NCBI GenBank assembly: GCA_022496185.1
Contig: WTXG01000092.1
Coordinates: 62,001-126,000 of the forward strand
Direction of reading: 5' to 3'
DNA from: Multifurca ochricompacta
Lineage: Eukaryota; Basidiomycota; Agaricomycetes; Russulales; Russulaceae
DNA length: 64,000 nt
The notes under the pieces were generated by a model. The model had not been told where the DNA came from. It ran no database searches and was given only the letters and a program-made list of their open reading frames with translations. The translations under genes and the position numbers were made by a program. This document shows, piece by piece, positions 7,674 to 52,349 of this stretch (position 1 is its first letter; the number at the start of each line of letters is the position of its first letter).

Positions 7674-7691
7674 GGTTATGGGCCCTGCCGC
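7674..7691 (+). promoter_or_regulatory. Primer-binding site, initiator tRNA-Met anticodon half
   Basis: Directly after the LTR the sequence reads GGTTATGGGCCCTGCCGC. Its first 12 bases are the exact reverse complement of GGGCCCATAACC, the anticodon arm of eukaryotic initiator tRNA-Met. The same site abuts the 5' LTRs of copia-2 and copia-3. Drosophila copia is primed by an internally cleaved initiator tRNA in this way. Confidence 0.85.
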
Positions 7692-8611
7692 TCATACTGA
7701 CTGTTTAAATTCCCTTTGTTCATAAACAGCCCAACTTGCTCTTGCACTCCAAGCTCACAAAAGCTTCAAAGTCTTTCCCACCAGCTTCTTCCAGTGAGCT
7801 TTCCTATTTACTGTCTGTGCACCTTAACACCCCACAGGATGACGCAGTTTACTGCTCATCCTGAACTGTTTGGCTAGCCCTTCGGGGTTCTTGCAAAAGA
7901 TGATGAGGGACCCTAAGCGGGTGAAACATCTTAAGCTCCTTGAGTGCGCACTAGGTATTAGTAACCTTCATAGTTGTAGCTGGGTCTTCGTCCCATAGAT
8001 AGTCTTAGTAGGCCTATAGCCAGAAGCTTGTGGCTTTAAGTCCAGTCAATGCTTGGCTCTGTCTGTAAGCCGGGTTTAGCGACCCGCATGTGGAGTTTAG
8101 GGTCTAGAACAAGGCATGGGTAGTCACTCCCATGACGCTTGGGCTCGATACAAGTAGGCTGCACTACTATAGTCTATACATAGTAGATATAGTCTTCATC
8201 TCTGGGCATAAGTATCCATTGCCTTTGTAGGGTAACCACGCCCTACCAGAGACAGACTTGTCATCTACTCAGTCATGGCCCCAATCATCTAGGGCTTAAT
8301 CATGAACTCCACCACCAGCATTAGAGGAAGGGCTATACACCCTTTGTCTCTAATGGAACTTGCGGTTGGCTCCTTCATGACATGACTCCCAATCCTGGTT
8401 ACACTAGACACTCTGGCCAGTCTACCAGAGCTTATGTCTAGTTACAGGATTGCGCTAGACAGCTTTACTATACCTAGAAAGTCGCACAACAAAGGCAGGA
8501 CCTTCTTAGGTTCTGAAGCATAGCGCCACAGTATGGGGTGGCACTCTTAAGCGAGACCTGGGCACTGGTTCTAACTGCTCCTTGGAACCAGGAACACTTA
8601 TAACATCTCAA
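7692..8611 (+). other. copia-1 untranslated leader
   Basis: About 0.9 kb between primer site and gag ATG, with no long open frame. The same leader is found in copia-2 (39651-40570) and copia-3 (26500-27415). Its conserved length suggests a packaging or regulatory RNA role, but I cannot identify one. Confidence 0.6.
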
Positions 8612-9547
8612 ATGCCGTCTTCAATTGTCTTCCCTCCCTCCTCCAAGATGGAGCGCCTTGATGGCTCCAACTGGCAGGTCTGGTCTGCCAACTTCAATGC
8701 CCTTTTGAGGATGAATGGGCTCAGGAGGCACATTCTTACGCCTTACCCTGATATGCCCCTCCTCCCAGAGGACAAGGAGGAAAAGGAGAAAATGCAGAAG
8801 GAAGTCATTGATCCCATCCTCAGGGAATGGATGGGAGAAGAGGAAATGCTAATTGGGCTCCTCTTTCTTAACGTCACCCAAGAGGTCTACTCCCAAGTAG
8901 CCTCTGATGCCAATTATCCTTCTCTTAGTGAGAAGTATAATAAGTTGGAGCGGCTTTATGGCTCTGTAGGTAGCATGGCCACATATAACTTGTGGCTTGC
9001 CCTGGTGTCCTTCCGTCTTGATGAAGGACAGACATTCAGGACCCAATTACAAAAGGTCCTGGATGCCAGGAGTACCCTTAGGGAGAATGGGATGGAGGTC
9101 AATGACCTCCAGATGAGCTTCATATTGCTGAAAGCTCTCCCTGAATCCTACAGTGCCATTGCCGGCTCTATACTGGCCTCTGGCGATCCAGAGCGGCTCT
9201 CTCCTCAGGACCTTGTGCAGAGGTTCCTAAATGAGGAAAGTCGCCTGGCAGGTCCCTCGGGAAGTGGTAGTGCAGTCCTATCTAAGGCTGCACCTGTCAA
9301 AACTAAAAAACCTACAAATTTATCACCACTTCCCGCTGCTGCCCCTGGTTCACAAGGGGTGGTCTGCTTCTATTGTCAAAAGCCTGGACACAAGTCCAAT
9401 GCTTGCGCAAAGAAGAAAAAGGACCTGGAGAATGCCAAAAAGGGCAAGGCAGGGAACAAGAAGAGGGCTGAGGCCCAACATGTAAATACTATAGCCACTG
9501 TAGTTAATGGTAGTGGCAAAATAGAGGAGGTGCATGAAGCACCTTGA
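8612..9547 (+). CDS. copia-1 Gag
   Basis: 311 codons from ATG 8612; in copia-2 the frame also begins at MPSSIVF, and an upstream TTG is not needed. It starts with a conserved LDGSNWQVW motif, typical of copia Gag, and ends with a zinc knuckle CFYCQKPGHKSNAC (CX2CX4HX4C, about residues 264-277) and a lysine-rich tail. Gag forms the virus-like particle and binds the RNA. It ends at TGA 9545-9547, in the same frame as pol. Confidence 0.93.
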   Translation: MPSSIVFPPSSKMERLDGSNWQVWSANFNALLRMNGLRRHILTPYPDMPLLPEDKEEKEKMQKEVIDPILREWMGEEEMLIGLLFLNVTQEVYSQVASDANYPSLSEKYNKLERLYGSVGSMATYNLWLALVSFRLDEGQTFRTQLQKVLDARSTLRENGMEVNDLQMSFILLKALPESYSAIAGSILASGDPERLSPQDLVQRFLNEESRLAGPSGSGSAVLSKAAPVKTKKPTNLSPLPAAAPGSQGVVCFYCQKPGHKSNACAKKKKDLENAKKGKAGNKKRAEAQHVNTIATVVNGSGKIEEVHEAP

Positions 9548-12500
9548 ATTCGCCTTTATGTTCACACCTATAATCTGGATATCAACTCAGATTATTGGAT
9601 GCTTGATAGTGGAGCAACGGCTCATTTCAGTCCCAACCTTGAAGACTTCGATACATATGAAGTCGACAGAACCCATGAAGTATCACTAGGCGACAACTCC
9701 ATAGTCAAAACAAATGGAGTTGGCACCGTGATCATCAGGACTGATCAAGGTTACGACTTGGAATTGAGCAATGTACTCCATATGCCTGGAGGACATAAAA
9801 TAATCTCCGCCAGTGCCCTAGTAGAAAAAGGGGCAACTGTGTTCTTTGATAATAAGAAGGCAACAATAAAATATGGCGATAACATTATAGCGGAAGCATG
9901 GAAGTTTGGCAAATTGTATTGGGTACTAGGCAAACACGTCCTAAATAGTATCCATACAACTGCATCTGCCTCACTAGAAATCTGGCATCAAAGAATGGGC
10001 CATATGTCTAAAGAAGCCCTAAAGAGATATGCTCCTGAGGCGGTAAAGGCCTCAAAATAAATAATAGCCAAGTGGAAGACAAGCCATGTTATGGCTGTGA
10101 AATGGGCAAGTCCCATCGTCTTCCATTTCCCCCATCTTCAAAGCGTGCATCAGCCCCCCTTGAGATCCTTCATAGTGATCTTGTAGGTCCCTTGCAGTGC
10201 AGTTCAATACAAGGGAATCTTTACTTTGCCACCTTCTTGGACGACTTTAGCAGATACGCTTTAATCATTCCAATGAAGTCAAAAGATCTGTTCACACCAG
10301 TTTTTAATAAACTGAAGACACTACTTGAAAATAAATTCAATCATAAAATCAAGTGTCTTCATACAGATCGTGGTGGCGAGTATGTGAACAAGGCGCTGAA
10401 GGCAACGCTTGAAGATTATGGCATAGAGCATAAACTTATGATGCCGTATAGCCCACAACAGAATGGAAGGGCCGAGAGATTTAATAGAACCATTATGGAA
10501 AAAGGCACTAGCATGCTGCACGATGCTGGCCTATCTCTTGGTTTTTGGGAGTGTGCTGTTGAGACAGCATGTCATATATATAATAGAACTCCCATCCGTT
10601 CTAACAAGTGGAAAACTCCACTTGAGCTTCTGGTTGGGAACAAACCAGATGTCTCGTATTTTAAGGTCTTTGGTTGCAAAGCCTATTACCATGTTCCAGA
10701 GGGCAAGCGGCATAAACTAGATCCCAAAGCCAGGGAAGCCGTCTTTGTCAGGTATGAGCCTACTTCTAAAGGCTATACACTTTGGGATAGTCGTACCCGG
10801 TCTCTCATCTTTTCACGAGATGTTACATTTGATGAGAGATCCTTCCCATCCCGCTCTGATAAGGACAACAGAGCAGACAAATCAATAGAGCAACCTACTG
10901 AAGGTGGCTCCTTTACTTTACCTGGTGGCCCAGTCCAGCCACCACCAGCAACTGCTACGCATGTTCCTGAGGCTCCTCAAGATGAGGAAGGCCTAGAAGA
11001 GGAACAGGAGGACGTCGTACCTCCACAATTACCACAACAGCCTACCACACCCACACGTAATGTAGACACCACACACCCTCAGACTATATATCAGACCCCT
11101 CCATCTCAAATCATGGAACCATCCTCCCCTCCCAAAAGAACCAAGGCAATCAGAAAATCACAAAGGATTGCAGACAGAATTCCTCAACCCAATTTTCAGA
11201 GGACGAGTCCACGCTCTGAACGACGAGATAGGGCAATCCAAGAAGATTTGGACTTGGATACTGCACGTCCCAATCGCAACCGTCGTCTGAATCCTCGCTT
11301 CTACAACGAGGATAATGCAGAGTTTGTGCAAGGTTCTTCCAGACTTGGTCAGATGGATCTACTTAATGCTGCAGGATTGCCTTATAGGGATCCTCTTACA
11401 TTTAAAGAAGCAATGGAGTCTGATAATGCCAGTGATTGGCTTGAGGCATGTCAATATGAAATTGATGCCTTAGAAAAACTTAAAGTGTGGCGCCTTGAAG
11501 ACCTTCCTGAAGGTAGAAAGGCTGTAAAGTCCAAGTGGGTCTTTAAATTGAAAGCAGATGGACGCTTTCGTGCTAGGCTTGTAGCAAAAGGGTTCACCCA
11601 AGTAGAGGGGGTGGACTTCAATGAAACCTTCTCCCCAGTCGCCAGATTTGAGTCTCTTCGACTATTATTAGCGTTGGCCGCGCTTGAGGATTGGGAAATC
11701 CACCAGATGGATGTCAAATCGGCATTCCTACATGGCGATCTGGATGAGGAGATTTACATGGAGCAACCTGTTGGTTTGTCGTTGCTGGACAAGAGTCCAA
11801 AGTTTGTAGGCTACAGAAAGCTCTGTATGGCCTCAAACAAGCTTCCCAAGCATGGAACTTACAATTCCATGCAGTTCTCAATGAACTGAGCTTTACTCGG
11901 ACGTACTCTGATGCAGGAGTATATGTGTATCATCACCAAGAGGGGGATGGTTCACTTTTCGTCATTTTATATGTTGATGACATCACTATACTTGGGTCCT
12001 CCACTAAGAAGATTCAATGGCTGAAGGACTCTCTATCTAGCCGATATGAGATGACCGATCTTGGCGAAATCCAGTCCTACCTTGGAGTTAACATCACCAG
12101 GGACCGTCCTAACAAGACACTGGATATCGACCAGACAGCCTATGTATCCTCCATAGTTGAGAGGTTTGGAATGGGGGATTCCAACCCAGTATATACTCCT
12201 CTACCCTCTGGCGTGGATGTTCATTTGGTCAAGTTTGAAGACCAAGCATCTACCTCTGATATTAAGAGGTATCAGCAGTTAATGGGGTCTCTGCTTTGGG
12301 TGCAGATTGGAAGCAGACCTGACATTAGTTTCGCTGTTGCACGCCTTAGCCAATTTGCTTCCAACCCTTCCCAGCAGCACATGCGACTAGCAAAATATGT
12401 CTTAGCTTATTTAAATGCTACAAAAGACTACAAGTTACGCTATTCTGGAGGGAATGGTGAAGTTGGCCTTCATGGCTTTGCGGATTCCTCATGGGGAGAT

Positions 12501-12932
12501 CAAGAGGACCGCCACTCCACCTCAGGCTATGTCTTTTTCCTTGCTAATGGAGCCATTAGCTGGTGTTCCAGGAAGCAAAAGACAGTAGCACAGTCCACCA
12601 CAGAAGCCGAGTATATGAGCCTTGCTGAGGCTTCAAATCAGGCTGTGTGGTATAGGACATTTATGCAGGAATTGGGATATGAAGTTAGTTCACCCATACA
12701 ACTGCACTGTGACAATAAGGGTGCAGTAGACCTTGCATTAAACCCTGTCACAGGAAGGCGATCAAAGCACATACCGATAAAGTACCATGCCATTAGGGAG
12801 TATGTAGAATCACACCAGATAGACTTGGTGCGAACTCCCACTGGAGAGATGCTAGCAGATGGCCTTACAAAGTCTCTGCCTAGATCATCTTTTGATCACA
12901 TGGTAACTGGATTTGGACTAGTGCTGGAATGA
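9548..12932 (+). pseudogene. copia-1 Pol (protease, integrase, RT, RNase H), two frameshifts
   Basis: The frame continues directly from the gag TGA. Protease: MLDSGATAHF at about 9599. Integrase: GAG-pre-integrase HQRMGHMS and [10 protein letters not shown], then catalytic D (HSDLVGPL), D (HTDRGGEY) and E ([10 protein letters not shown]). [14 protein letters not shown] through YVDDI (about 11958). RNase H: GFADSSWGDQ, STTEAEYMSLAEA and KHIPIKYHAIREYVE. Compared with copia-2 there is one A missing near 10047 (three instead of four) and one T missing near 11775, moving the frame twice. Both lie in short homopolymers, so they may be assembly errors rather than true mutations. Stop at 12932. Confidence 0.92.
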
Positions 12933-13185
12933 GAGAGCTGGAATCTGGAGACTTTGTATACCAGTTTCACTTTCCCACCATGAGCAAAATTCTCGACTTC
13001 GAGAGTGATGCAAGAGGTGTGGTTTCAGTTTGCATAAGAGAATCTAACTCAATATGCCTCTGAACACCATGGTCCTCTCTCTACACTTGAGAGTTAGAGA
13101 AGTTGGATCTCTGGCGATATGTTCGTTCAATTGTGAACAGCAGTGTGCTCATTTAACTCATTCCATCTTAATGATCGATGCCTTC

Positions 13186-13197
13186 ACCATGGAGGGA
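13186..13197 (+). promoter_or_regulatory. Polypurine tract, copia-1
   Basis: catggagggat sits immediately before the 3' LTR and is conserved in copia-2 (reverse, 35067-35078) and copia-3 (23207-23218). Its position fits the plus-strand primer. Confidence 0.7.
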
Positions 13198-13707
13198 TGT
13201 TGACACAGGATGTGTCTGGAGATGCTTCAGGCATCTAAGGTTCGCTTCAGCTGTAGATTAGATTAGATTAGATTCCGGAGTATCGGACTTTTTATGTTAT
13301 CTTTATTACATTTCTTTCTCACCTTACTCAGCTGATTAGTGATGGACTTAGTAATGCGCAGTAAGCATGTGATATCTCTTTGGCCAATGGCCTTTATCCC
13401 TCTCTGTTTATTGTCCGGCACTTGTGGACTTATTCCCAGTGCGCACAGACCATTTCCCCTGGCCCCCATGGGTATATAAGGGTGTCTGTTTTGTCTCTTA
13501 CACTTCAGAGTTCTTCTAACCTCTGAAGCGTAAGTTCCTTCTACTTTACTCTCTACTACCTCTAGACTAACCTTGTATATAGACTTGTCTTTCTAGGTCA
13601 GTAGTGTAGTAATATCAGAGTTCTTCTAACCTCTGAAGCACTTGTCTTTTCTAGCCTAACCCGCTACTAACCACAGTTAGTATAACCAGCAGCATCATTG
13701 TTTGACA
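13198..13707 (+). repeat. copia-1 3' LTR
   Basis: 510 bp, same landmarks as the 5' LTR. Ends TTTGACA followed by TSD TCTGT, after which the hAT transposase reading resumes. Confidence 0.94.
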
Positions 13708-15904
13708 TCTGTGTCTGGTATGTCTATGACATTCTCATCATCCTCACCATCACCTGCTGCATTGTTGTCATGTTCACATGAGAGAGGGATTGTAACATTG
13801 TCTTGGTAGTTGCCACTACGCATGGTGGCTTTTTTCCCTTCAGCCTTTGAGATTGCCCCTATGCCTTTGAGAAGCTGATATTTAAAGATTAGATGTGATG
13901 ACAGAAATAAATATAATTTTATGTAATACCTTGATAGCAGCCAAGTGAATTGTATGAGGCATGCAATGCAACTGTGCATCTTGTGCTGAGAATGGTATCC
14001 CTCATTGTTGGCATCACCATTCCAGTGATTTAACTAGGGTGTTGTTGTTGCTAGCATTATCCATTACAAGGGCAATAATCTGAAATGGATTAGAAACACA
14101 TTTCTAGGCTGAGGATGGGAAACTCACCTTTCCAATGAGACTGTATAACTCTAGTGTAGCCCAAACCGCCTCTGCCATATTCTCTCCTGAATGCTCCCCA
14201 GTAAGTTCTTGGAAGTCAATCAGCAACTCCTCTGGAAGGGGATAATAAGATTATGCCAGTTGAATGAAGGGAAGAGCACAAACCAAGTTGCCCATCATTG
14301 GTCACATAGTGTGCAACAATCGCCAAAAACGTGTACTGATTGCTTGATGTCCATGCATCCAGTGACAAGCACACCTTCCCCTCGAGATTCTGCTCATATG
14401 GATAAATATATGATATGAAGAAAATAAGATAATGCTTACTGAGAACATTTTGCGAATACTTTCGATTATTACCTCACCCATCTTCACAACATGCCACTTG
14501 ATCCCATCACGTTTCAGAATATCCAATGGACCACCATTGTGGTGTGTAAAATCCATCATCTTGATGAATTCAGGTTTCTCAACCTCATCAAACAGCTGGT
14601 TGCAGGCAACGATCCACTCAGTGAGGAGCCATTCAAATGTTTCTTGATCCCATGGAACCTGATCATTGCTTCATGACATCCAGATGTTTGAGAAGCTAAC
14701 ATTACTTACAGTGGTGTGGGCTTTCTGGTCTTCAAAGGCTTTCTTGATGTTTTCAGATGATTGCCCAAGCTTCTTTATGTATTCAGCTTCAGTGTGTCCA
14801 TCAAGTTTCTTTAGTCCAGATGTGATAGCAATCACATCAGGTGTTGGGGGCTCATCATGATTCTTAAGGATATAATAGAGTTGATACATCAGCTTAACAT
14901 GGATGCAGAGATTATTTGTGAGTACTAAGGGAAGCATCATCCATCAGGAATGATAAACAAAAAAATGATAAGATAATGCACCATTTAGATTAGATTTCAT
15001 TGTCTTCTTGATAGTACAAACCTTATGAGCGCCATGAAGGCAACGATAATGTATATCACCATCTTCTCCTGGGGTACTGCATGGCCCATTGGTGACAACT
15101 TCATAGAATAAATATATTGGATTCCTTATATTTCCAGCCTTCTATAAAAACCCAAAATGAGACAAAGATGTGAGAAACACAAGGCAAAACTTGCCTTTTT
15201 GGGGTGAGCATTTCTGAATGAGCTTGTTGGAAGGATGCTTGTATGCATTTCTGCAGTCCGGTGGGGGGTATCTTCATCTTCAATCTCCTTGACCTCAACA
15301 GAACAAGTCCTAGCCTTCTTCCTTGGGGGTGCAGGAGTTGGGTTCGTCTTTATCTTTGATTTTAGGATGTGTGCATGGCCCTTTTTGTTGCTGACCTCTG
15401 GTATGGTTTTTGAGGGTAACATATCAGCTAGCTACAAATTGTTAATTCACCTGACCATGGAATCACATTAAGATATTTCATACCTCTTCATTACTTATTT
15501 CCATGGCATTGCTAGGATCATCTGATCCATCCTCAGCAGAAGAAGCACTAAAGTCAGCATCATCTACATCACTATTGACATCATTCATGACAGCTTGCTT
15601 GCACTTTACAGGGGTCTTGTGTTTGGGGGTGTGTGCAAGGTGCCGGTGGGACAATGGGACAAGATTCCCAAATTCATCAAGCTTCTCCACAGCAATAGCT
15701 GTGGCTAATCATGTACCTGCAGTGGTTTGGACCAGGTGAGAACGTTGACCTGGAAGGATGAGTAAGTATTTCATAGCCACACTCAAATTACACTTGAATG
15801 AACTACTTACCTTGGTTTATGTGGGAACATGGTTGAATAGGTTTGGGGATTTTCGATGCATCAAGCTGTTGACCTTCTGGTCCTTGGGCAGGCTGATCTG
15901 TCAT

Positions 15905-29247: not shown

Positions 29248-29321
29248 GGCCATGTAGCTCAGTGGTTAGAGCGCTGGACCCGGATTGTCCAGAGGTCTTG
29301 GGTTCAATCCCCAACGTGGCC
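29248..29321 (+). tRNA. tRNA-like sequence in TRIM LTR 1 (probably a Pol III promoter)
   Basis: 74 nt fold as a cloverleaf: acceptor GGCCATG/CGTGGCC, D-arm GCTC...GAGC, T-arm TTGGG-TTCAATC-CCCAA, variable loop AGGTC. The A box TAGCTCAGTGG and B box GGTTCAATCCC are intact. The anticodon arm is unusual: six pairs (CTGGAC/GTCCAG) around CCGGATT with no U at position 33, so the anticodon is unclear and a decoding tRNA is doubtful. Confidence 0.6.
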
Positions 29322-29376
29322 ATTCCTTTTCTAGAGCGTGGGTTAGGGTCTTACTTAAGGTCCCTTTGCCGGAGTG

Positions 29377-29886
29377 TGTTGAACACAGGACGTGTTCAGT
29401 GATGCTTCAGGCATCAGGAGATTAGATTAGCTACTTTGTGGACTAGATTAGATATCAGAGTTTTGGACTATTTACCATATCATTATTACTTTCTTTCTCA
29501 CTTTCCGCAGTAGCTGACTGATGTACCTTAGTAATGATGCACAAGCATGTGATTCCTTACTGGCCAATGGCCTTATTCCCTCTTGTTTATTATTTGGACT
29601 TTGTCTGGCACTTGAGGACTTATTCCCAGTGCACAGACCATCCCTTAGGAAGTATATAAGGGTGTCTGTTTCGTCTCTTACACTTCAGAGTTTTCTTCAT
29701 CTCTGAAGTGTAAGTCCTCCCTACTCTACTACCTTACCTATAACTAACTGTCTCTTGTAGATAACTTGTTTCTAGGTGTGTAGTATAGTAATAGAGAGTT
29801 TTCTTCATCTCTGAAGTATAACTTGTTTCTAGCCTCACCCGCTAACCCTTCACAGTCAGTATGCTGCACACCTTGCCTGTTTCACA
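29377..29886 (+). mobile_element. Solo copia-type LTR in TRIM LTR 1
   Basis: 510 bp with TSD GAGTG (29372-29376, 29887-29891). It is a diverged lineage (TGTTGAACACAGG...TTTCACA). The leader has the cleanest case of the intron plus joined-copy arrangement (intron 29710-29760, copy 29795-29832). Confidence 0.94.
29710..29760 (+). other. Putative LTR intron (51 nt), exact joined copy at 29795-29832
   Basis: Exon 29687-29709 ends CTCTGAAGT; donor GTAAGT; CTAAC at 29744-29748; acceptor cttgtAG at 29760; exon 29761-29775 is ATAACTTGTTTCTAG. The 38 nt at 29795-29832 equal the two exons joined, with no mismatch. Confidence 0.7.
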
Positions 29887-30075
29887 GAGTGCATGTGGGC
29901 CAACATGGTAGCAGCATGTCATCTACTCTGTGCCTTTGACCCCCTAGAAAGGAAATTGGGAGAGTTTGCATGCACGGTTGCATGTGCGTGGGGGTGTGTT
30001 GACACAAGTGTAGTGCCGCACAATGCAACTCTCACATGACCTTGGTATATAAGGTTATGCTCCATGTAGAACCCA

Positions 30076-30149
30076 GGCCGTGTAGCTCAGTGGTTAGAGC
30101 ACCGGACCCGGATTGTCCAGAGGTCTTGGGTTCAATCCCCAACGTGGCC
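30076..30149 (+). tRNA. tRNA-like sequence in TRIM LTR 2
   Basis: Same 74-nt cloverleaf as 29248-29321 with intact A and B boxes. The anticodon stem has a mismatch (CCGGAC/GTCCAG), so it is less tRNA-like. It is probably promoter sequence rather than a tRNA gene. Confidence 0.5.
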
Positions 30150-30396
30150 ATTCCTTTTCTAGAGCATGGGTTAGGGTCTTACTTAAGGTCCCTTTGCCAG
30201 AGTGTGTGTGGGCCAACAGTTCTGGTTCCAGCTGTAACCCTATTGTTCAACCACTTGATTTGTTCCATGGTCCAATCATCAATGGCATCTCCTCTAATTA
30301 ATGAAAGGAAGGTGTTGGTGTGTTGGAAGGGGTTAACGATTTGTGGGACATTGTGGTTGAAGTTTTTAAACATCTCAAAATCAAGCATAAACTTCT

Positions 30397-31512
30397 TGTG
30401 ATGATTCCAGGACTGGGTGAAGCATCAGAGATCATGTGTCCTTTTCTTATTTTTGATTGATTGTTGTGACTTGCTGATGGACATTAACTCCCATATGACA
30501 TGCTTATGAAGGACCTATTACTATACTTTGATCTGCTTACTGATTTGCTTACTGAGCTTACTAGTTTGCTTAGAGATCAACTTAGAGGGCACAACCCCTC
30601 TCCCTTCTTTATCATTCTGGGGTATTCTACTGTACAACCATTAGAATACCTAGCACATGTTCCAGTAGCTACCAGAATCTCCTTCATAGCATAGCACATG
30701 TATATAAATCCTAGTAACACCTGAACAAGACCTTAAGTCTATTCTTCTGTATCCAATACAGGTGCTTTGGGACTTACTTCATTGTTTTTGAACATTCCAC
30801 TTGAAACCTTTAAGCCACACCTTGAAGGAACTTCAACCCCTGAAACTTGTGGCAGGACTTAGCATCACTGCTCGACTTCACCTTGTGCCTGTGCCCTTTG
30901 ACTGACATAACTGTCAAACAATCATGCTGCTGGTTATACTGACTGTGGTTAGTAGTGGTTTAGGCTAGAAAAGACAAGTAACTTCAGAGGTAGAAGGAAC
31001 TCTATATTACTACACTACTGACCTAGAAAAGACAAGTACTACATAGAGCATTAGTCTAAAGGAAGTAGAGAGTAAACTAAATGGGACTTACACTTCATGA
31101 AGTGTAAGAGACAAAACAGACACCCTTATATACCCCAAGGGATGGTCTGTGTGCACTGGGAATAAGTCCACAAGTGCCAGACAATAAACAATGAGGGACT
31201 AAGGCCATTGGCCAACAAAGAGTCACATGCTTACTGCGCATTACTAAGTACATCACTAATCAGCTGAGTAAGGTGAGAAAGAAATGTAATAAAGATATCG
31301 TAAAAAGTCCAAAACTCCGGAACCTAATCTAATCTTATCTACAGCTAAAGCGATCCTTAGATGCCTGAAGCATCTCCAGACATGTCCTGTGTCAACAATA
31401 ACTAGACTCAAGTCGACTTGACTTGATTAGCTTTGACTTGATAGAGGTCCTTGAACCTTGCCAGATGACCTGGACCCTGAATCTCAACACAGCAGCACAC
31501 CTTGCTGTGACA
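30397..31512 (+). mobile_element. Solo gypsy-type LTR split by a copia LTR
   Basis: TGTGATGATTCC to GCTGTGACA, perfect TSD CTTCT (30392-30396, 31513-31517), 625 bp net. TATA at about 30700 (tgtatataaatcc) gives plus orientation. It lies in the gypsy-R gag; the KK-F codons resume on each side. The parent family is not otherwise present. Confidence 0.88.
30912..31397 (-). mobile_element. Solo copia-type LTR
   Basis: 486 bp, TSD ATAAC (30907-30911, 31398-31402). The upstream leader hairpin is shortened to cttcatgaag, while the downstream joined copy keeps the full-length exon. The junction (AAGT/TACTTG) is the same in intron-flanking exons and copy. Confidence 0.93.
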
Positions 31513-34555: not shown

Positions 34556-35330
34556 TCTGTCAAACAATGATGCTGCTGGTTATACTAACTGTGGTTAGTA
34601 GCGGTTAGGCTAGAAAAGACAAGTGCTTCAGAGGTTAGAAGAACTCTGATATTACTACACTACTGACCTAGAAAGACAAGTCTATATACAAGGTTAGTCT
34701 AGAGGTAGTAGAGAGTAAAGTAGAAGGAACTTACGCTTCAGAGGTTAGAAGAACTCTGAAGTGTAAGAGACAAAACAGACACCCTTATATACCCATGGGG
34801 GCCAGGGGAAATGGTCTGTGCGCACTGGGAATAAGTCCACAAGTGCCGGACAATAAACAGAGAGGGATAAAGGCCATTGGCCAAAGAGATATCACATGCT
34901 TACTGCGCATTACTAAGTCCATCACTAATCAGCTGAGTAAGGTGAGAAAGAAATGTAATAAAGATAACATAAAAAGTCCGATACTCCGGAATCTAATCTA
35001 ATCTAATCTACAGCTGAAGCGAACCTTAGATGCCTGAAGCATCTCCAGACACGTCCTGTGTCAACATCCCTCCATGGTGAAGGCATCGATCATTAAGATG
35101 GAATGAGTTAAATGAGCACACTGCTGTTCACAATTGAACGAACATATCGCCAGAGATCCAACTTCTCTAACTCTCAAGTGTAGAGAGAGGACCATGGTGT
35201 TCAGAGGCATATTGAGTTAGATTCTCTTATGCAAACTGAAACCACACCTCTTGCATCACTCTCGAAGTCGAGAATTTGCTCATGGTGGGAAAGTGAAACT
35301 GGTATACAAAGTCTCCAGATTCCAGCTCTC

Positions 35331-38300
35331 TCATTCCAGCACTAGTCCAAATCCAGTTACCATGTGATCAAAAGATGATCTAGGCAGAGACTTTGTAAGG
35401 CCATCTGCTAGCATCTCTCCAGTGGGAGTTCGCACCAAGTCTATCTGGTGTGATTCTACATACTCCCTAATGGCATGGTACTTTATCGGTATGTGCTTTG
35501 ATCGCCTTCCTGTGACAGGGTTTAATGCAAGGTCTACTGCACCCTTATTGTCACAGTGCAGTTGTATGGGTGAACTAACTTCATATCCCAATTCCTGCAT
35601 AAATGTCCTATACCACGCAGCCTGATTTGAAGCCTCAGCAAGGCTCATATACTCGGCTTCTGTGGTGGACTGTGCTACTGTCTTTTGCTTCCTGGAACAC
35701 CAGCTAATGGCTCCATTAGCAAGGAAAAAGACATAGCCTGAGGTGGAGTGGCGGTCCTCTTGATCTCCCCATGAGGAATCCGCAAAGCCATGAAGGCCAA
35801 CTTCACCATTCCCTCCAGAATAGCGAACTTGTAGTCTTTTGTAGCATTTAAATAGCTAAGACATATTTGCTAGTCGCATGTGCTGCTGGGAAGGGTTGGA
35901 AGCAAATTGGCTAAGGCGTGCAACAGCGAAACTAATGTCAGGTCTGCTTCCAATCTGCACCCAAAGCAGAGACCCCATTAACTGCTGATACCTCTTAATA
36001 TCAGAGGTAGATGCTTGGTCTTCAAACTTGACCAAATGAACATCCACGCCAGAGGGTAGAGGAGTATATACTGGGTTGGAATCCCCCATTCCAAACCTCT
36101 CAACTATGGAGGATACATAGGCTGTCTGGTCGATATCCAGTGTCTTGTTAGGACGGTCCCTGGTGATGTTAACTCCAAGGTAGGACTGGATTTCGCCAAG
36201 ATCGGTCATCTCATATCGGCTAGATAGAGAGTCCTTCAGCCATTGAATCTTCTTAGTGGAGGACCCAAGTATAGTGATGTCATCAACATATAAAATGACG
36301 AAAAGTGAACCATCCCCCTCTTGGTGATGATACACATATACTCCTGCATCAGAGTACGTCCGAGTAAAGCTCAGTTCATTGAGAACTGCATGGAATTGTA
36401 AGTTCCATGCTTGGGAAGCTTGTTTGAGGCCATACAGAGCTTTCTGTAGCCTACAAACTTTGGACTCTTGTCCAGCAACGACAAAACCAACAGGTTGCTC
36501 CATGTAAATCTCCTCATCCAGATCGCCATGTAGGAATGCCGATTTGACATCCATCTGGTGGATTTCCCAATCCTCAAGCGCGGCCAACGCTAATAATAGT
36601 CGAAGAGACTCAAATCTGGCGACTGGGGAGAAGGTTTCATTGAAGTCCACCCCCTCTACTTGGGTGAACCCTTTTGCTACAAGCCTAGCACGAAAGCGTC
36701 CATCTGCTTTCAATTTAAAGACCCACTTGGACTTTACAGCCTTTCTACCTTCAGGAAGGTCTTCAAGGCGCCACACTTTAAGTTTTTCTAAGGCATCAAT
36801 TTCATATTGACATGCCTCAAGCCAATCACTGGCATTATCAGACTCCATTGCTTCTTTAAATGTAAGAGGATCCCTATAAGGCAATCCTGCAGCATTAAGT
36901 AGATCCATCTGACCAAGTCTGGAAGAACCTTGCACAAACTCTGCATTATCCTCGTTGTAGAAGCGAGGATTCAGACGACGGTTGCGATTGGGACGTGCAG
37001 TATCCAAGTCCAAATCTTCTTGGATTGCCCTATCTCGTCGTTCAGAGCGTGGACTCGTCCTCTGAAAATTGGGTTGAGGAATTCTGTCTGCAATCCTTTG
37101 TGATTTTCTGATTGCCTTGGTTCTTTTGGGAGGGGAGGATGGTTCCATGATTTGAGATGGAGGGGTCTGATATATAGTCTGAGGGTGTGTGGTGTCTACA
37201 TTACGTGTGGGTGTGGTAGGCTGTTGTGGTAATTGTGGAGGTACGACGTCCTCCTGTTCCTCTTCTAGGCCTTCCTCATCTTGAGGAGCCTCAGGAACAT
37301 GCGTAGCAGTTGCTGGTGGTGGCTGGACTGGGCCACCAGGTAAAGTAAAGGAGCCACCTTCAGTAGGTTGCTCTATTGATTTGTCTGCTCTGTTGTCCTT
37401 ATCAGAGCGGGATGGGAAGGATCTCTCATCAAATGTAACATCTCGTGAAAAGATGAGAGACCGGGTACGACTATCCCAAAGTGTATAGCCTTTAGAAGTA
37501 GGCTCATACCTGACAAAGACGGCTTCCCTGGCTTTGGGATCTAGTTTATGCCGCTTGCCCTCTGGAACATGGTAATAGGCTTTGCAACCAAAGACCTTAA
37601 AATACGAGACATCTGGTTTGTTCCCAACCAGAAGCTCAAGTGGAGTTTTCCACTTGTTAGAACGGATGGGAGTTCTATTATATATATGACATGCTGTCTC
37701 AACAGCACACTCCCAAAAACCAAGAGATAGGCCAGCATCGTGCAGCATGCTAGTGCCTTTTTCCATAATGGTTCTATTAAATCTCTCGGCCCTTCCATTC
37801 TGTTGTGGGCTATACGGCATCATAAGTTTATGCTCTATGCCATAATCTTCAAGCGTTGCCTTCAGCGCCTTGTTCACATACTCGCCACCACGATCTGTAT
37901 GAAGACACTTGATTTTATGATTGAATTTATTTTCAAGTAGTGTCTTCAGTTTATTAAAAACTGGTGTGAACAGATCTTTTGACTTCATTGGAATGATTAA
38001 AGCGTATCTGCTAAAGTCGTCCAAGAAGGTGGCAAAGTAAAGATTCCCTTGTATTGAACTGCACTGCAAGGGACCTACAAGATCACTATGAAGGATCTCA
38101 AGGGGGGCTGATGCACGCTTTGAAGATGGGGGAAATGGAAGACGATGGGACTTGCCCATTTCACAGCCATAACATGGCTTGTCTTCCACTTGGCTATTAT
38201 TTATTTTGAGGCCTTTTACCGCCTCAGGAGCATATCTCTTTAGGGCTTCTTTAGACATATGGCCCATTCTTTGATGCCAGATTTCTAGTGAGGCAGATGC

Positions 38301-38714
38301 AGTTGTATGGATACTATTTAGGACGTGTTTGCCTAGTACCCAATACAATTTGCCAAACTTCCATGCTTCCGCTATAATGTTATCGCCATATTTTATTGTT
38401 GCCTTCTTATTATCAAAGAACACAGTTGCCCCTTTTTCTACTAGGGCACTGGCGGAGATTATTTTATGTCCTCCAGGCATATGGAGTACATTGCTCAATT
38501 CCAAGTCGTAACCTTGATCAGTCCTGATGATCACGGTGCCAACTCCATTTGTTTTGACTATGGAGTTGTCGCCTAGTGATACTTCATGGGTTCTGTCGAC
38601 TTCATATGTATCGAAGTCTTCAAGGTTGGGACTGAAATGAGCCGTTGCTCCACTATCAAGCATCCAATAATCTGAGTTGATATCCAGATTATAGGTGTGA
38701 ACATAAAGGCGAAT
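35331..38714 (-). pseudogene. copia-2 Pol
   Basis: Open from the gag TGA through 38663-35856 (protease DSGA, integrase, RT with YVDDI) for over 900 codons. Three single-base losses at 35824-35871 then break the RNase H start; the last ~105 codons (35648-35331) are open again. All three losses are absent in copia-1 and copia-3. If they are assembly errors, this copy may be intact and active. Protease, integrase, RT and RNase H motifs as in copia-1. Confidence 0.92.
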
Positions 38715-39650
38715 TCAAGGTGCTTCATGCACCTCCTCTATTTTGCCACTACCATTAACTACAGTGGCTATAGTATTTACATGTTGGGCCTCAGCCCTCT
38801 TCTTGTTCCCTGCCTTGCCCTTTTTGGCATTCTCCAGGTCCTTTTTCTTCTTTGCGCAAGCATTGGACTTGTGTCCAGGCTTTTGACAATAGAAGCAGAC
38901 CACCCCTTGTGAACCAGGGGCAGCAGCGGGAAGTGGTGATAAATTTGTAGGTTTTTTAGTTTTGACAGGTGCAGCCTTAGATAGGACTGCACTACCACTT
39001 CCCGAGGGACCTGCCAGGCGACTTTCCTCATTTAGGAACCTCTGCACAAGGTCCTGAGGAGAGAGCCGCTCTGGATCGCCAGAGGCCAGTATAGAGCCGG
39101 CAATGGCACTGTAGGATTCAGGGAGAGCTTTCAGCAATATGAAGCTCATCTGGAGGTCATTGACCTCCATCCCATTCTCCCTAAGGGTACTCCTGGCATC
39201 CAGGACCTTTTGTAATTGGGTCCTGAATGTCTGTCCTTCATCAAGACGGAAGGACACCAGGGCAAGCCACAAGTTATATGTGGCCATGCTACCTACAGAG
39301 CCATAAAGCCGCTCCAACTTATTATACTTCTCACTAAGAGAAGGATAATTGGCATCAGAGGCTACTTGGGAGTAGACCTCTTGGGTGACGTTAAGAAAGA
39401 GGAGCCCAATTAGCATTTCCTCTTCTCCCATCCATTCCCTGAGGATGGGATCAATGACTTCCTTCTGCATTTTCTCCTTTTCCTCCTTGTCCTCTGGGAG
39501 GAGGGGCATATCAGGGTAAGGCGTAAGAATGTGCCTCCTGAGCCCATTCATCCTCAAAAGGGCATTGAAGTTGGCAGACCAGACCTGCCAGTTGGAGCCA
39601 TCAAGGCGCTCCATCTTGGAGGAGGGAGGGAAGACAATTGAAGACGGCAT
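38715..39650 (-). CDS. copia-2 Gag
   Basis: 311 codons from MPSSIVF, identical or nearly so to copia-1 Gag, with the CX2CX4HX4C knuckle. It ends with the same TGA (plus-strand tca 38715-38717), and pol follows in the same frame 17 codons before MLDSGA. Confidence 0.94.
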   Translation of the reverse strand: MPSSIVFPPSSKMERLDGSNWQVWSANFNALLRMNGLRRHILTPYPDMPLLPEDKEEKEKMQKEVIDPILREWMGEEEMLIGLLFLNVTQEVYSQVASDANYPSLSEKYNKLERLYGSVGSMATYNLWLALVSFRLDEGQTFRTQLQKVLDARSTLRENGMEVNDLQMSFILLKALPESYSAIAGSILASGDPERLSPQDLVQRFLNEESRLAGPSGSGSAVLSKAAPVKTKKPTNLSPLPAAAPGSQGVVCFYCQKPGHKSNACAKKKKDLENAKKGKAGNKKRAEAQHVNTIATVVNGSGKIEEVHEAP

Positions 39651-40570
39651 TTTGAGATGTTATAAGTGTTCCTGGTTCCAAGGAGCAGTTAGAACCAGTG
39701 CCCAGGTCTCGCTTAAGAGTGCCACCCCATACTGTGGCACTATGCTTCAGAACCTAAGAAGGTCCTGCCTTTGTTGTGCGACTTTCTAGGTATAGTAAAG
39801 CTGTCTAGCGCAATCCTGTAACTAGACATAAGCTCTGGTAGACTGGCCAGAGTGTCTAGTGTAACCAGGATTGGGAGTCATGTCATGAAGGAGCCAACCG
39901 CAAGTTCCATTAGAGACAAAGGGTGTATAGCCCTTCCTCTAATGCTGGTGGTGGAGTTCATGATTAAGCCCTAGATGATTGGGGCCATGACTGAGTAGAT
40001 GACAAGTCTGTCTCTGGTAGGGCGTGGTTACCCTACAAAGGCAATGGATACTTATGCCCAGAGATGAAGACTATATCTACTATGTATAGACTATAGTAGT
40101 GCAGCCTACTTGTATCGAGCCCAAGCGTCATGGGAGTGACTACCCATGCCTTGTTCTAGACCCTAAACTCCACATGCGGGTCGCTAAACCCGGCTTACAG
40201 ACAGAGCCAAGCATTGACTGGACTTAAAGCCACAAGCTTCTGGCTATAGGCCTACTAAGACTATCTATGGGACGAAGACCCAGCTACAACTATGAAGGTT
40301 ACTAATACCTAGTGCGCACTCAAGGAGCTTAAGATGTTTCACCCGCTTAGGGTCCCTCATCATCTTTTGCAAGAACCCCGAAGGGCTAGCCAAACAGTTC
40401 AGGATGAGCAGTAAACTGCGTCATCCTGTGGGGTGTTAAGGTGCACAGACAGTAAATAGGAAAGCTCACTGGAAGAAGCTGGTGGGAAAGACTTTGAAGC
40501 TTTTGTGAGCTTGGAGTGCAAGAGCAAGTTGGGCTGTTTATGAACAAAGGGAATTTAAACAGTCAGTATG

Positions 40571-40589
40571 AGCGGCAGGGCCCATAACC
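40571..40589 (-). promoter_or_regulatory. copia-2 primer-binding site
   Basis: Minus-strand GGTTATGGGCCCTGCCGC directly next to the 5' LTR, identical to copia-1, complementary to the anticodon half of initiator tRNA-Met. Confidence 0.85.
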
Positions 40590-41105
40590 TGTCAAACAAT
40601 GATGCTGCTGGTTATACTAACTGTGGTTAGTAGCGGGTTAGGCTAGAAAAGACAAGTGCTTCAGAGGTTAGAAGAACTCTGATATTACTACACTACTGAC
40701 CTAGAAAAGACAAGTCTATATACAAGGTTAGTCTAGAGGTAGTAGAGAGTAAAGTAGAAGGAACTTACGCTTCAGAGGTTAGAAGAACTCTGAAGTGTAA
40801 GAGACAAAACAGACACCCTTATATACCCATGGGGGCCAGGGGAAATGGTCTGTGCGCACTGGGAATAAGTCCACAAGTGCCGGACAATAAACAGAGAGGG
40901 ATAAAGGCCATTGGCCAAAGAGATATCACATGCTTACTGCGCATTACTAAGTCCATCACTAATCAGCTGAGTAAGGTGAGAAAGAAATGTAATAAAGATA
41001 ACATAAAAAGTCCGATACTCCGGAATCTAATCTAATCTAATCTACAGCTGAAGCGAACCTTAGATGCCTGAAGCATCTCCAGACACGTCCTGTGTCAACA
41101 ACATC

Positions 41106-41122: not shown

Positions 41123-42633
41123 GTGGCTTCCAGCCGCAGTCAGACCCTCTTCCGGGAAGAACTCATCGAACACAGAGACGAGAATAATCTTTCACAGCAA
41201 GTACTTGGCTCTGCCACCTGGAAAGACTTTGAGTCCGAGTTTGGATATTACGTCTATCACAACGGAAGATACCAACCGGTAGAATATGACGACAAAAAGA
41301 GAGTTTGGTATCGCATCCGATACTCGGACAGCCAACACTCTTGGGTCACTACAGGACCTGCCCCACCCAAATTTGGACTAGGCCCATGGAGAGAGAATCC
41401 CCTGGCCATTGTCACGGACTCCGAACCAGAGGAGTATGTAGAAGAACCCAGTGAAGAAGCACCGGCATTAGCAGCAACTACGTTTCCAGTTGCACCCACA
41501 GTTGTCACGTTCAGAGCACCTGCTTTGACAACTCCCCAGATATCGACACAAACCACCGACACTATTACCCCATCCCGTCCACCCATGTCTACCATTGCCG
41601 CCCAACTTCCGGACCCTGCTCCACCAGCCCCCGTGGCACCACCTCCAAACATCCCCCCCCTTCTGGACATCTGTCAGGAGTGTTACCCCAAACGTTCACC
41701 GGGGACCGCTCACAGAGTAAAAAGTTCATGTTGGAGTTCACAACCTTCAAGAACTTCAATCATGATGTTCCACAGATTGTCAATCCCTTCCAATGTGCCA
41801 ATCTGTTTCTCTCCCTGATCCGAGGGGATGCAGTGGATGACTGGACGATGGAACAGTTGGAATGGCTGAACGAGCAGGTTGAGAGTGGGCGTCGAACCAC
41901 AAGCAAAGGTCTTTGGGAGACCATAGCCGAGAGGTTCAAGGACGCCTTCACAGATGGGCAGGCCAAACAGAAAGCAGCCCGAGAATTAAAGTCCCTCAGA
42001 ATGGAAAAGGGAGAACTTGACGCATATGTGGCCAAGTTCAGAAGTCTAGCCAACAGAGCCGGCTATGATACAGACGAGGAGGCCACACTGGACCTCTTTT
42101 CGCAAGGACTACCCAACCTGCTAGTCAAAAACATCATACAGTTTCACCACCCCCATGATTGGGACACTTGGGTCGATGCTGCACGCCGGCAGCAGCAGGA
42201 CTATCTGGACTTCCAGACACGATTTGGAGTCGATACTAAAAAGGGAAAGACCCGAGACCAGTGGAAGGCCACCTTCGGAGTAAAACCTGCCCAGCATACC
42301 CAGCGGGATCCAAATGCCATGGATACCTCTGCAGATCAAGCTCGAGCTCAGGCAGCACTCATGGAGGATGAGCGGCAGGCATTAATGAAGGAAGGGCGAT
42401 GCTTTCGCTGCAGAGCATTAGGACACATGTCTCGAGACTGTCCCAAGAAGGGGGTGCGCGTCGCCATGGCAACCGTCACATCAGAAAGCCCCGCTCAGAA
42501 TAACCCAACCACTGTGGACAAAAGATCGAAAGAGGAGAAAGCCCAGGATATATGGGCTAATATGATGAAAGAGAGTGAGGAAGTATGCGCCATTTTGGTA
42601 GAGAAGGCGTTTGCGAAAAAGGATTTTTGTTAG
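41123..42633 (+). pseudogene. gypsy-1 Gag (one frameshift)
   Basis: Two overlapping frames, 41123-~41690 and ~41680-42633, joined at a run of eight C near 41652; a ninth C would restore the frame, and gypsy-R supports the joined reading (proline-rich to GVLPTTF). Conserved core FKNFNHDVPQIVNPFQ, RGDAVDDWTMEQLEWLN, ERFKDAFTDGQAKQKAARE, and a zinc knuckle CFRCRALGHMSRDC near the end. There is no ATG at the start: the first residues are encoded from GTG. Capsid and RNA binding. Confidence 0.88.
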
Positions 42634-45600
42634 GCTCAAACCCATCGGCCTGGGCAAGAGCACTCCATGTCACCTCTGTGTATGCTAGTCGATTCAAATC
42701 GTTAAAAATACCAGTTCATTTTGAAACTACACAGAGGATGGCCAACCGAGATATTTTAGTGGACTCTGGAGCCATGGACAATTTCATTCACCCACGACTA
42801 ATCAGAACAATGGGTCTGGGAAGGCTGGCACTTCCCCAGGAAAAGAACATTTGGAACATTGATGGAACAGCCAATCGTGCTGGAAAGATTACCCACTACA
42901 CAGACCTGAAAGTCCAGGTTGGGGAAACAACAAAAGTCATCCACTTCTTAATTACAGATCTAGGAGATGAAGATCTCATCCTGGGATATCCATGGCTTGC
43001 CGCTTTTGAACCAAAGATTAACTGGGCTGATGCGACCATGGATAAAGACTCATACCCAACCATTATCACATCACTAGGTTATGATTATGCGATCAGACAT
43101 CCAGTAGTCAGGACTACATGAACGGAGGAAGGGGATGACCCTGGTCAAGGTTACGTCACCAAAGCATCAGAACTGGCCCAGAAGGCTGTGCAGGGGCAAG
43201 TTGAAAAGACCTACCAAGATATAGTGCCAAGTGCCTATCAGTGGCACTGGAGAATATTCTCTGAGGAAGAGTCGCATCGCTTTCCCCCAGAGCGACCATG
43301 GGATCATGCCATAGAACTCCTCCCAGATACGCCGGTTGCTATAGACTGCAAAGTCTACCCACTGTCCCAGACGGAGCAGGTGGCACTTACTGAATTCCTC
43401 GAAGAGCATCTAGCCAAGGGATACATTCGCCCATCCAAGTCACAGTATGCCTCACCTTTCTTCTTCATCAAGAAGAAAGACAGCAAGTTGCGACCAGTCC
43501 AGGACTACCGAAAAATTAATACGTATACTGTGAAGAACACCTATCCCCTGCCCCTTATTTCCGAACTCATTGACACCATGCAGGATAAGTCCCTCTTTTC
43601 AAAAATGGACGTACGTTGGGGATACAACAATGTCAGAATCAAGGAGGGCGACCAATGCAAGGCGGCATTCAAAACGAACCAAGGATTGTTCGAACCGAAT
43701 GTCATGTTCTTTGGGCTTACAAATTCACCGGCAACATTTCAATCCATGATGAATCACATCTTCCGAGACCTTATCCTTACCGGCGAAGTGGTGGTTTACA
43801 TGGATGACATCCTGGTTGCCACTACCAATGATCTGAATCACCATCGAGAACAAGTCCATCAGGTGCTGGATATATTGCACAAGCACGATTTGTACCTCAA
43901 ACCCACAAAGTGCTCCTTTGAACAGCAAAGCGTCGAGTACTTGGGAGTGATTCTGGAGGGAGGACAAGTGCGCATGGACCCTGTCAAGGTACAAGGAATC
44001 AGGGAATGGCCAATGCCAACTTGCGTCAAGGACATCCGATCCTTTATCAGATTTTGTAACTTCTATTGGCGTTTTGTCAAAGGATTCTCAGGTATAGCAT
44101 GACCCTTGAACGACCTCCTGAAAAAGGACATGCCCTGGCATTGGAATGCCGAACAACAATGAGCATTTGAACAGATTAGAGCTCTGGTTGGCTCTGAACC
44201 AGTACTTACCCAACCTGACCTGAGCCGCCCCTTTGAGCTAGAAGTGGACACCTCCCACTTTGCGAATGGGGCGGTGTTGTATCAAAGAGACAGTCTGCAA
44301 GTGCTTCACCCAGTGGCCTACTATTCAGAAACCTTTTCATCTGCCGAGCGAAATTACGATATTTGGGACCAGGAACTCCTAGCCATAGTCAAAGCGCTAC
44401 GGCATTGGCGGCCATACCTTGCCGGGAATCCCCACAAAACGGTCATCTACACGGATCATTCTAACCTGTTGTACTGGAAAGAGCCCCACAAAATCAGTCA
44501 GCATGTAGCACGAGAGGTCTTAGAGCTCGAGGAATATGACTTTACCCTGAAGCACATCGCAGGAAGTCAGAATGCGTGAGTGGATGCATTATCACGAAGA
44601 CCAGACATGCATACAGGGGGAGACGACAATGACCATGTAACTGTCCTCACAGAAGAAGTGTTCGCAAAAACAGCTGTAGTCAGCCTTCATGATATGGACC
44701 TATGGGCACAAGTCTCCCAAAACATGAACCCAGAACTATGCCGCTCATGGGCTGACGCACACAACCTGAAAGAGATCAACAGTCTTTGGTGGAAAGATGG
44801 AGATCGACTCGTTGTCACCGGTGGTGACAACATTAAGAGGGGGGTGATCCATTTTCACCACGATCTCCCCTCTGCCGGTCATCCAGGCATTGCCAACACT
44901 TACGCCCTCGCCAAATGAGACTACTGGTGGCCCAACATGAAAAAGGATGTTGAAGACTACGTGAAGGGATGTGCAGACTGCCAAGCTAATAAAGTAAACA
45001 CACACCCGCATCCTCCAGCGATGCTTCCCATCACTCCCACTATGTCTCTACCATTCCAGACGATTGCCATGGATTTCATAGTCAAACTGCCCAACTCTAG
45101 AGGCTTTGACTCTATTCTAACCATCACAGACCATGACTACTCCAAAGCAGCGCTCTTCATACCATGCAAGGAGTCTATCACAGCTGAAGGAGTGGCCAAA
45201 CTCTATCTCGACCACATCTACTGACATTATGGCCTCCCAGAAAAGATCATCTCTGACCGAGACCCACGCTTCACCTTGACATTCGCCAGAGCATTATGCA
45301 AGGTTCTGGACATACAGCAAAACATCTCAACAGCCTACCACCCCCAAACAGATGGACAGTCAGAGCGTACCAATCAATGGCTGGAGCAATACCTCCAATT
45401 CTGGTGCAATGGACGACAGGACGACTGGGCAGACTGGCTGGCAACAGCAGAGTTTGCGCACAACTCCTGGCCTAACGGCACGACAAAGACCCCCCATTTT
45501 CCCTTATCATGGGCTGGGTACCATGCACCACATGGACTGATAAGCCAATGAATGTTCCCATGACCTCACAGCGACTTAACCAATGGGACAAGATCTGGAA

Positions 45601-52127: not shown

Positions 52128-52349
52128 ATATATATGTAGATGTATCCAGTATAGTTGCAATTCTGGTGGGAAAATATGTAAGAGTCCTGATGTAAAGTAT
52201 GAGTCATAGATAAGCACAGCCTGAGTCAAAGATAAGGAACAAACAAGTGCAAAGGAAGGCATAAGTGTAATCAACAAAGGTCAAGCAGGGCCAAACAATG
52301 AGTCATGTGGCATGAAAAGGAAAAAGACAATGTAGCAGGGTTTGTAACA

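Follow-up and report, generated by a model that had tools for sequence, protein, structure and literature searches.

An intron that is removed from the genomic RNA of a retroelement by splicing would be expected to disappear from the element. In HIV-1, splicing lies downstream of the primer site and leaves the LTR unchanged, and the foamy-virus splice donor, which is located in R, serves downstream splice acceptors. Among Ty1/copia LTR retrotransposons, Drosophila copia is primed by a half-tRNA-iMet. We know of no copia element that carries introns in R-U5 together with a landing site made of joined exons. Spliced HIV-1 RNA is reverse transcribed, according to PMC1868081. In foamy viruses, RNA structure hides the splice donor of R in the 3' LTR, where 13 bases of U3 alter the folding around it (PMC3694450). 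The base upstream of the HIV-1 transcription start is altered by cap copying and mismatch extension at about 5% per cycle (PMC12172438). On reaching the 5' end of an RNA, MMLV-type enzymes append untemplated bases, and on capped RNA the first base that the MMLV enzyme adds is almost always dC (PMC6885630).

The copia-type LTRs described here appear to carry two short introns in the transcribed R-U5 region and to replicate through a spliced RNA 5' end. In the full scheme, which is deduced from sequence comparison and to which we assign a probability of about 0.8, the spliced 5' RNA end would land on a joined-exon copy, termed the echo, and the introns would be rebuilt from an unspliced 3' LTR. 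The LTR at positions 29377-29886 (+ strand, as are all features in this paragraph apart from the flanking direct repeat) of the window, the whole 64,000-nt stretch that was analysed, is a solo LTR of copia type (TGTT...CACA), which we assign to family 1. It is flanked by a 5-bp direct repeat, GAGTG, at 29372-29376 on the left and 29887-29891 on the right, as a target-site duplication. The TATA box TATATAAGG occupies 29653-29661, with its first base 34 nt upstream of the first exon, E1 (29687-29709), whose A at 29687 is the putative transcription start. E1 is followed by intron 1 (29710-29760, 51 nt, GTAAGT...CTAAC...TAG), which would be removed by splicing, and by the second exon, E2 (29761-29775), which ends TCTAG. 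A 19-nt spacer (29776-29794), the last base of which is a hypervariable position, leads to the echo (29795-29832), in which E1 and E2 are joined without intron 1 and which is the candidate landing site for spliced strong-stop cDNA. Spacer and echo together form the putative intron 2 (29776-29832, 57 nt, GTGTGT...TTTCTAG), and U5 (29833-29886) completes the LTR. An earlier note on this DNA had claimed a GTAAGT, a CTAAC and a terminal AG for the 51-nt segment, and an exact 38-nt copy of the joined exons from which the intron is absent. Both claims were reproduced: the coordinates and motifs hold, and 29795-29832 equals 29687-29709 plus 29761-29775 with zero mismatches. Four further points go beyond that note: the layout is common to relatives, each echo tends to match the exons of its own copy, a second intron-like segment terminates with the echo, and a predicted hairpin covers both the start and the 5' splice site. 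It is noted that two tRNA-Ser-like genes (anticodon GGA), at 29248-29322 and 30076-30150 (+), lie in similar stretches on either side of this LTR; they look like copies of a tRNA-carrying, SINE-like repeat.

Two complete copia elements in the window carry the echo layout in both of their LTRs, one at 7164-13708 (+; 5' LTR 7164-7673, 3' LTR 13198-13707) and the other at 34558-41100 (-; Pol ORF 35856-38663). In each of them near-identical LTRs flank the coding part. Open reading frames between LTRs of the echo layout contain the domains Retrotran_gag_2, gag_pre-integrs, rve and RVT_2, that is, a copia-type gag and an integrase placed before the reverse transcriptase. Directly after the LTR stands GGTTATGGGCCC, a candidate primer site that may match the anticodon arm of the initiator tRNA. 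These elements resemble Ty1/copia elements in their gag and pol domains, in the 5-bp duplication seen at the solo LTR, in the TG...CA-type LTR and, putatively, in GGTTATGGGCCC adjoining the LTR. They differ in that the R-U5 part of their LTR holds two segments resembling introns and a landing site in which the exons are joined. The two elements are nearly identical and inverted relative to each other, and a one-base loss in E2 is common to both 3' LTRs and absent from the 5' LTRs, a pattern that favours duplication of a DNA segment over two separate insertions.

The layout was also recovered blindly, by searching both strands of the window for any GT...AG gap, 40-89 nt long, with flanks that are found again in joined form (10+10 nt) no more than 300 nt away. 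The scan returned 22 matches, compared with none in each of ten first-order random sequences, of which one strand was scanned. By position, 21 of the 22 fall in family 1 LTRs, some of them amounting to no more than the trivial junction of E2 with U5 where the echo ends, and the remaining match belongs to a second LTR family. The genome (53.8 Mb, 605 contigs), presumably that of a filamentous and probably basidiomycete fungus, was searched with strict patterns, giving 951 intron-bearing LTR leaders and 32 intronless ones, with E2 attached directly to E1 behind U3, all 32 of the latter being without a spacer and separate echo. The earlier note had held that a survey in which the echo lacks or predates the intron would speak against its reading; from these counts, an echo without the intron is not the common form.

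For closer comparison, 172 leaders were assembled from fetched loci and the window. They comprise 134 with the full layout (161-178 nt; 131 of them parsed), 32 intronless leaders (52-59 nt), four LTRs that have intron 1 and no echo (111-114 nt; three of them independent, as two have a common flank) and two sequences that are not LTRs (69-70 nt). The 41 leaders not parsed as the full form include, besides the intronless, echo-less and non-LTR sequences, three full-form copies with damaged signals, two of which miss the donor or branch motif and one of which has an intron 2 ending in AAG. One of the 131 parsed copies (L089) has an unparsed E2 and was left out of the echo-exon edit, echo -1, hairpin and donor-openness counts, so that at most 130 copies entered them. 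A further 70 TATA-like matches were excluded for want of a U5 anchor; on inspection, almost all of them are unrelated sequence or lie on the opposite strand, and a few are LTRs cut or interrupted downstream. It should be mentioned that the family 1 sample is non-random, having been collected by similarity to three query LTRs and with patterns that favour the intronless and echo-less forms, and that several motif counts were aided by a parser which searched for those same motifs. The exact leader pattern had no match in viral_contigs and genome_contigs, which are viral and prokaryote collections and say nothing on other fungi.

The echo follows the exons of its own copy. Of the 131 parsed relatives, all arranged as E1-intron-E2-spacer-echo, 99 have an echo identical to their own joined exons, and the agreement spans 79 exon haplotypes, including length changes and shifts of the E2 start. 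Thirteen different 8-nt E2 starts occur among the 99 exact copies, each directly after the TAG of intron 1. On average the echo is 0.31 edits away from its own exons and 6.18 from the exons of other copies (n=130). When echoes were shuffled within clusters of near-identical intron 1 plus spacer, at most 57 exact matches were obtained in 2000 shuffles, as against the 99 observed. In 110 of 130 copies the echo lies nearer to its own exons than to the exons of the closest neighbour that differs; nine copies are ties, and in 11 its own exons are the more distant.

Differences between echo and exons are found in 31 of 130 copies, 26 of them amounting to one edit. Four of the 31 have a T in E1 and a C in the echo where E1 would form a CpG with the G of the intron, and all seven ATAAGT donors follow an E1 ending in C; these cases point to decay of CpG sites once the copy had inserted. 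LTRs of both families show changes from CG to TG or CA, such as methylation decay would produce, at the E1-intron junction in family 1 and in E2 in family 2. In total, echo and exons differ by 40 edits in 130 copies of ~38 nt (~0.8%), near the 22 differences in ~3.4 kb (~0.6%) between the LTRs of seven presumed elements, whose pairing was taken from distance and strand. The closeness of the two values dates the last identity of exons and echo to roughly the moment of insertion.

These observations bear on two other explanations of the echo. If a spliced cDNA had been joined once to an unspliced end, with the layout inherited since and without further role, a single ancestral layout could have passed to all copies; such an accident predicts independent divergence of echo and exons, however, and not 0.3 edits between them as against ~6 between copies, nor would it account for the same design in a family whose Pol is 58% identical and whose LTRs are unalignable. 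We consider it hardly credible. The strand-transfer origin that the earlier note had proposed for the echo is supported, with the correction that the echo is no one-time relic and seems to be written anew in every cycle. An old joined copy might also be kept similar to the exons by ordinary gene conversion, or by recombination between the repeats in the DNA. The repeats probably do recombine, since the 32 intronless and four echo-less LTRs (three independent) look like deletions between repeats. To account for the data, however, conversion would need to act on tracts of 23 and 15 nt, indels included, in nearly every copy, and it makes no hypervariable base at the echo edge that is common to both LTRs of an element. 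It is therefore an improbable source of the agreement.

That base is found directly before the echo, at position -1, where T occurs in 80 copies, C in 41, A in 7 and G in 2 (n=130). E1, by comparison, is preceded by C in 130 of 130. Position -1 of the echo differs in 87 of 204 overlapping close pairs, compared with none to two pairs at each of the positions -2 to -14, 12 pairs at -15 and 3 at -16. Among 37 non-overlapping close pairs it differs in 14, every other spacer position in at most one, and intron 1 at ~2% of bases. In all seven presumed LTR pairs of family 1, both LTRs have the same base at this position. A scrambled base at the echo edge that is fixed before integration is a trace that the end of the strong-stop cDNA can leave at first-strand transfer. 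In HIV-1 minus-strand transfer (PMC12172438), it is the base immediately preceding the start that is altered, much as the base at the 5' edge of the echo is here; the HIV-1 scar is a G at the U3/R border by the promoter, whereas here it lies at the echo, ~108 nt downstream of the putative start, and is mainly T or C. Cap copying, from which scars of this kind are known to arise, would give G, and considering that G is rare at echo -1 (2/130), the letters do not fit cap copying. The C could derive from transcripts that start one base upstream, where C precedes E1, and the T from an added A. With either origin, the RNA 5' end of E1 would have been copied onto the echo.

The distance from the TATA box to E1 is 34 nt in 129 of 131 family 1 copies, and with a TATA box so placed the RNA should start at E1. 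From this distance together with the strand-transfer scar, we infer that transcription starts at E1. In a conventional LTR, by comparison, the strand-transfer border coincides with the promoter start; here the scar is at the echo and not at E1, the start being placed by the TATA distance. One could still suppose that R is the echo, that the RNA starts there, and that E1-intron-E2 is merely duplicated U3 sequence which is never spliced, and the scar at the 5' edge of the echo is indeed what is expected of a U3/R border. The TATA box argues against this arrangement, being 34 nt before E1 in 129/131 family 1 copies and in 40/40 copies of the second family, with none, by reading, at that distance before the echo. 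Moreover, an arrangement of this kind gives E1 and E2 no reason to change in step with the echo, and we regard it as very improbable.

Intron 1 has the features of a spliceosomal intron, with a GT donor, a branch-like CTAAC, an AG acceptor and the length of a short intron, the motifs being ones that the parser sought. Its donor is GTAAGT in 124 copies and ATAAGT in 7 (n=131), its length is 49-57 nt in 130, and it ends in TAG. Intron 2 begins with GTnnGT in 128 of 131 copies while positions 3-4 vary (GTCAGT 67, GTGTGT 57, few others), and it ends in TAG in 131/131 parsed copies at a length of 54-62 nt, which places a GT donor and an AG acceptor at a plausible distance. By reading, many copies are without a clear branch site in intron 2. 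A simple gene model of the chaperonin genes, from which host intron rules were sought, gave no usable introns. A single large intron from E1 to the E2 part of the echo was considered and rejected: there is no AG directly before E2 in the echo, and the match to E2 would then be left unexplained.

Based on these signals and on the following argument, introns 1 and 2 would both be removed from the 5' end of the element RNA. If only intron 1 were removed, a spacer and echo would be added in each cycle; for the LTR to stay constant, spacer and echo must also leave the 5' RNA end. With these removed, the RNA begins E1-E2-U5, a sequence no different from echo-U5, and a cDNA that lands on the echo would rebuild the LTR without any change. 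The landing-site scheme of the earlier note is thus retained with an amendment, as it closes only if 29776-29832 is also spliced from the 5' RNA end, and only one double echo was found. This double echo, one LTR genome-wide or about 1 in a thousand (the pattern would detect 118 of 130 parsed copies if doubled), is L193 on the minus strand of contig C2, which has two identical spacer+echo units, both echoes being equal to its own joined exons. It is the product expected from a cycle with intron 2 left in; a tandem duplication could also make it. The same LTR is predicted by a model in which splicing is confined to intron 1, intron 2 is retained throughout, and an E1E2-spacer-echo cDNA lands in register or slips, a model with which the less regular branch region of intron 2 also agrees. 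However, landing of the cDNA end would in that case add one unit per cycle, and apart from this one LTR no double echo was found, with none of the 172 leaders being of doubled length; in-register transfer, for its part, would not rewrite the echo. We think it very unlikely that intron 2 always remains in the RNA.

In the proposed cycle, with transcription starting at E1, introns 1 and 2 (the latter comprising spacer and echo) would be spliced out at the 5' RNA end to leave E1-E2-U5. Reverse transcriptase would copy from the primer site to the cap, yielding a strong-stop cDNA of U5-E2-E1. The 3' LTR would stay unspliced, probably through a hairpin of 12-14 pairs in which U3 sequence, absent at the 5' end, engages the first 5' splice site. 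The strong-stop cDNA would pair with the echo, in which the exons are already joined, and be extended through the spacer, E2, intron 1, E1 and U3. The new LTR would thereby regain both introns, and its echo would be a fresh copy of the spliced exons of the parent. An echo rewritten in each cycle would make echo and exons change together, scramble one base at the echo edge and let the introns survive RNA-based copying. The earlier note had proposed that a spliced 5' end was joined to an unspliced 3' end at first-strand transfer, for which the echo-exon covariation, the scar at the echo rather than at E1 and the start placed by the TATA box now provide support, and that the echo is a landing site which allows the LTR to keep its intron, with which the covariation and the scar at the 5' edge of the echo agree. 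Compared with the reverse transcription of spliced HIV-1 RNA, in which the LTR is unchanged by splicing, the introns here lie inside the LTR.

The predicted hairpin consists of a 5' arm, CTTACACTTCAGAG (29677-29690, +), and a 3' arm, CTCTGAAGTGTAAG (29701-29714, +), the latter covering the 5' splice site of intron 1. The first ten bases of the 5' arm belong to U3 and would be present only in the transcript of the 3' LTR if the RNA starts at 29687. The predicted energy of the CTTACACTTCAGAG/CTCTGAAGTGTAAG hairpin is -20 kcal/mol (z -7.75). At least 12 of the 14 pairs are kept in 130 of 130 copies, and all 14 in 72, when G-T pairs are counted; with Watson-Crick pairs only, 14 are kept in 70 copies, 13 in 38 and 12 in 22 (n=130). 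The donor of intron 1 is predicted to be more open at the 5' end than in the 3' LTR context in 116 of 126 copies, the mean unpaired value being 0.32 versus 0.17. According to this folding model, a hairpin that depends on U3 could mask the 5' splice site of intron 1 in the 3' LTR and not at the 5' end. For the donor of intron 2, a predicted openness of 0.25 was obtained in both the 5' and 3' contexts, so something else must spare this intron in the 3' LTR, perhaps the RNA ending there. The predicted arrangement would resemble that of foamy viruses (PMC3694450), where a 5' splice site lies in R and U3 bases just upstream of the start, present at the 3' end only, alter the fold over the donor. 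It differs in that the introns here end before the primer site, so that the spliced RNA itself would be the template of reverse transcription.

The 32 intronless LTRs do not serve as proof of landing on E1, because loss of the sequence between E1 and its repeat would yield an identical product and the variable base expected before E1 after such a landing is absent, C being found there in 32/32. Most intronless LTRs may be plain deletions between E1 and its repeat. One intronless 5' LTR (L031, contig C5) has an intron-bearing LTR on the same strand ~6 kb away, and such a partner suggests deletion in place. Two elements (C94, C246) seem to be intronless at both ends.

A second copia family shows the same design. 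Its solo LTR in the window lies at 51720-52129 (+), with the right end uncertain by ~3 nt in an AT run. On the same strand, E1 (51934-51957) is followed by intron 1 (51958-52013, GTGAGT...CTAAC...GTAG), E2 (52014-52033), a spacer beginning GTAAAG (52034-52053), the last base of which is C or T among copies, and an echo of joined E1 and E2 (52054-52097), which in the window copy has two CpG-type differences from E2. The sample comprises the window copy and 39 near-full-length places among the matches listed (40 of 634 candidates scored), and includes 34 distinct sequences. Each of the 40 copies conforms to a pattern based on the echo layout, and the TATA box is 34 nt from E1 in 40/40. E1 equals its part of the echo in 39 of 40 copies, and the whole echo is equal in 26, or in 38 under a lenient mask of CG, CA and TG differences. 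The base at echo -1 is C in 25 copies and T in 15, while the base before E1 is C in 40/40 (required by the pattern, none having failed). Echo -1 agrees in four of four LTR pairs ~4.8 kb apart, and also in a fifth same-strand pair 6.4 kb apart. One copy (L171) combines E1 and intron 1 of one lineage with an echo resembling that of another. Movement of strong-stop cDNA from one co-packaged RNA to a second would have this result, and so would a slip by one base. A hairpin over the splice site is predicted here as well (-15.2 kcal/mol, z -3.58; one copy folded). The LTRs of the two families gave no alignment beyond chance when compared with each other, and their Pol proteins are 58% identical over a 708-aa stretch; with the design common to both, it is likely older than either family.

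In sum, the strategy would consist of genomic RNA that is spliced within the terminal repeat, an echo pad inside intron 2 that is rewritten in each cycle, and a U3-dependent hairpin that retains the 3' intron 1, in a design that persists across copia families as far apart as 58% identity in Pol. We regard this reading as quite probable, and we found no LTR element for which such a strategy is described. A search on introns in LTRs and on retrotransposon splicing met with no such layout in titles or abstract starts of the open-licence literature, which is weak evidence of novelty. If the scheme is true, the elements possess a built-in answer to intron loss, with the introns of the repeat rebuilt from the 3' end in each round. 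A fungal element could then use leader introns, for expression or for removing early poly(A) signals, and still remain intron-bearing in the genome. The LTRs would also be a natural record of first-strand transfer, each insertion storing the spliced exons of its parent, in the echo, beside its own unspliced ones, and strand transfer, co-packaging and start-site choice might be readable from the genome alone. The layout opens plain tests in cultivable fungi.

Several other features of the window were noted. In a family 1 LTR at 30912-31397 (-), the middle of E1 has been lost between the hairpin arms and is kept in the echo; we read this as a deletion at the palindrome, with the echo as a record of the old E1. 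At 41680-44102 (+), a Gag with a zinc knuckle and an RVT_1 reverse transcriptase belong to a retroelement of another type, probably Ty3-like. The regions 53536-57056 and 57944-61465 form an inverted pair, the arms of which are 89-95% alike and contain long NACHT/ankyrin-like open frames, the domain names being assigned by reading.
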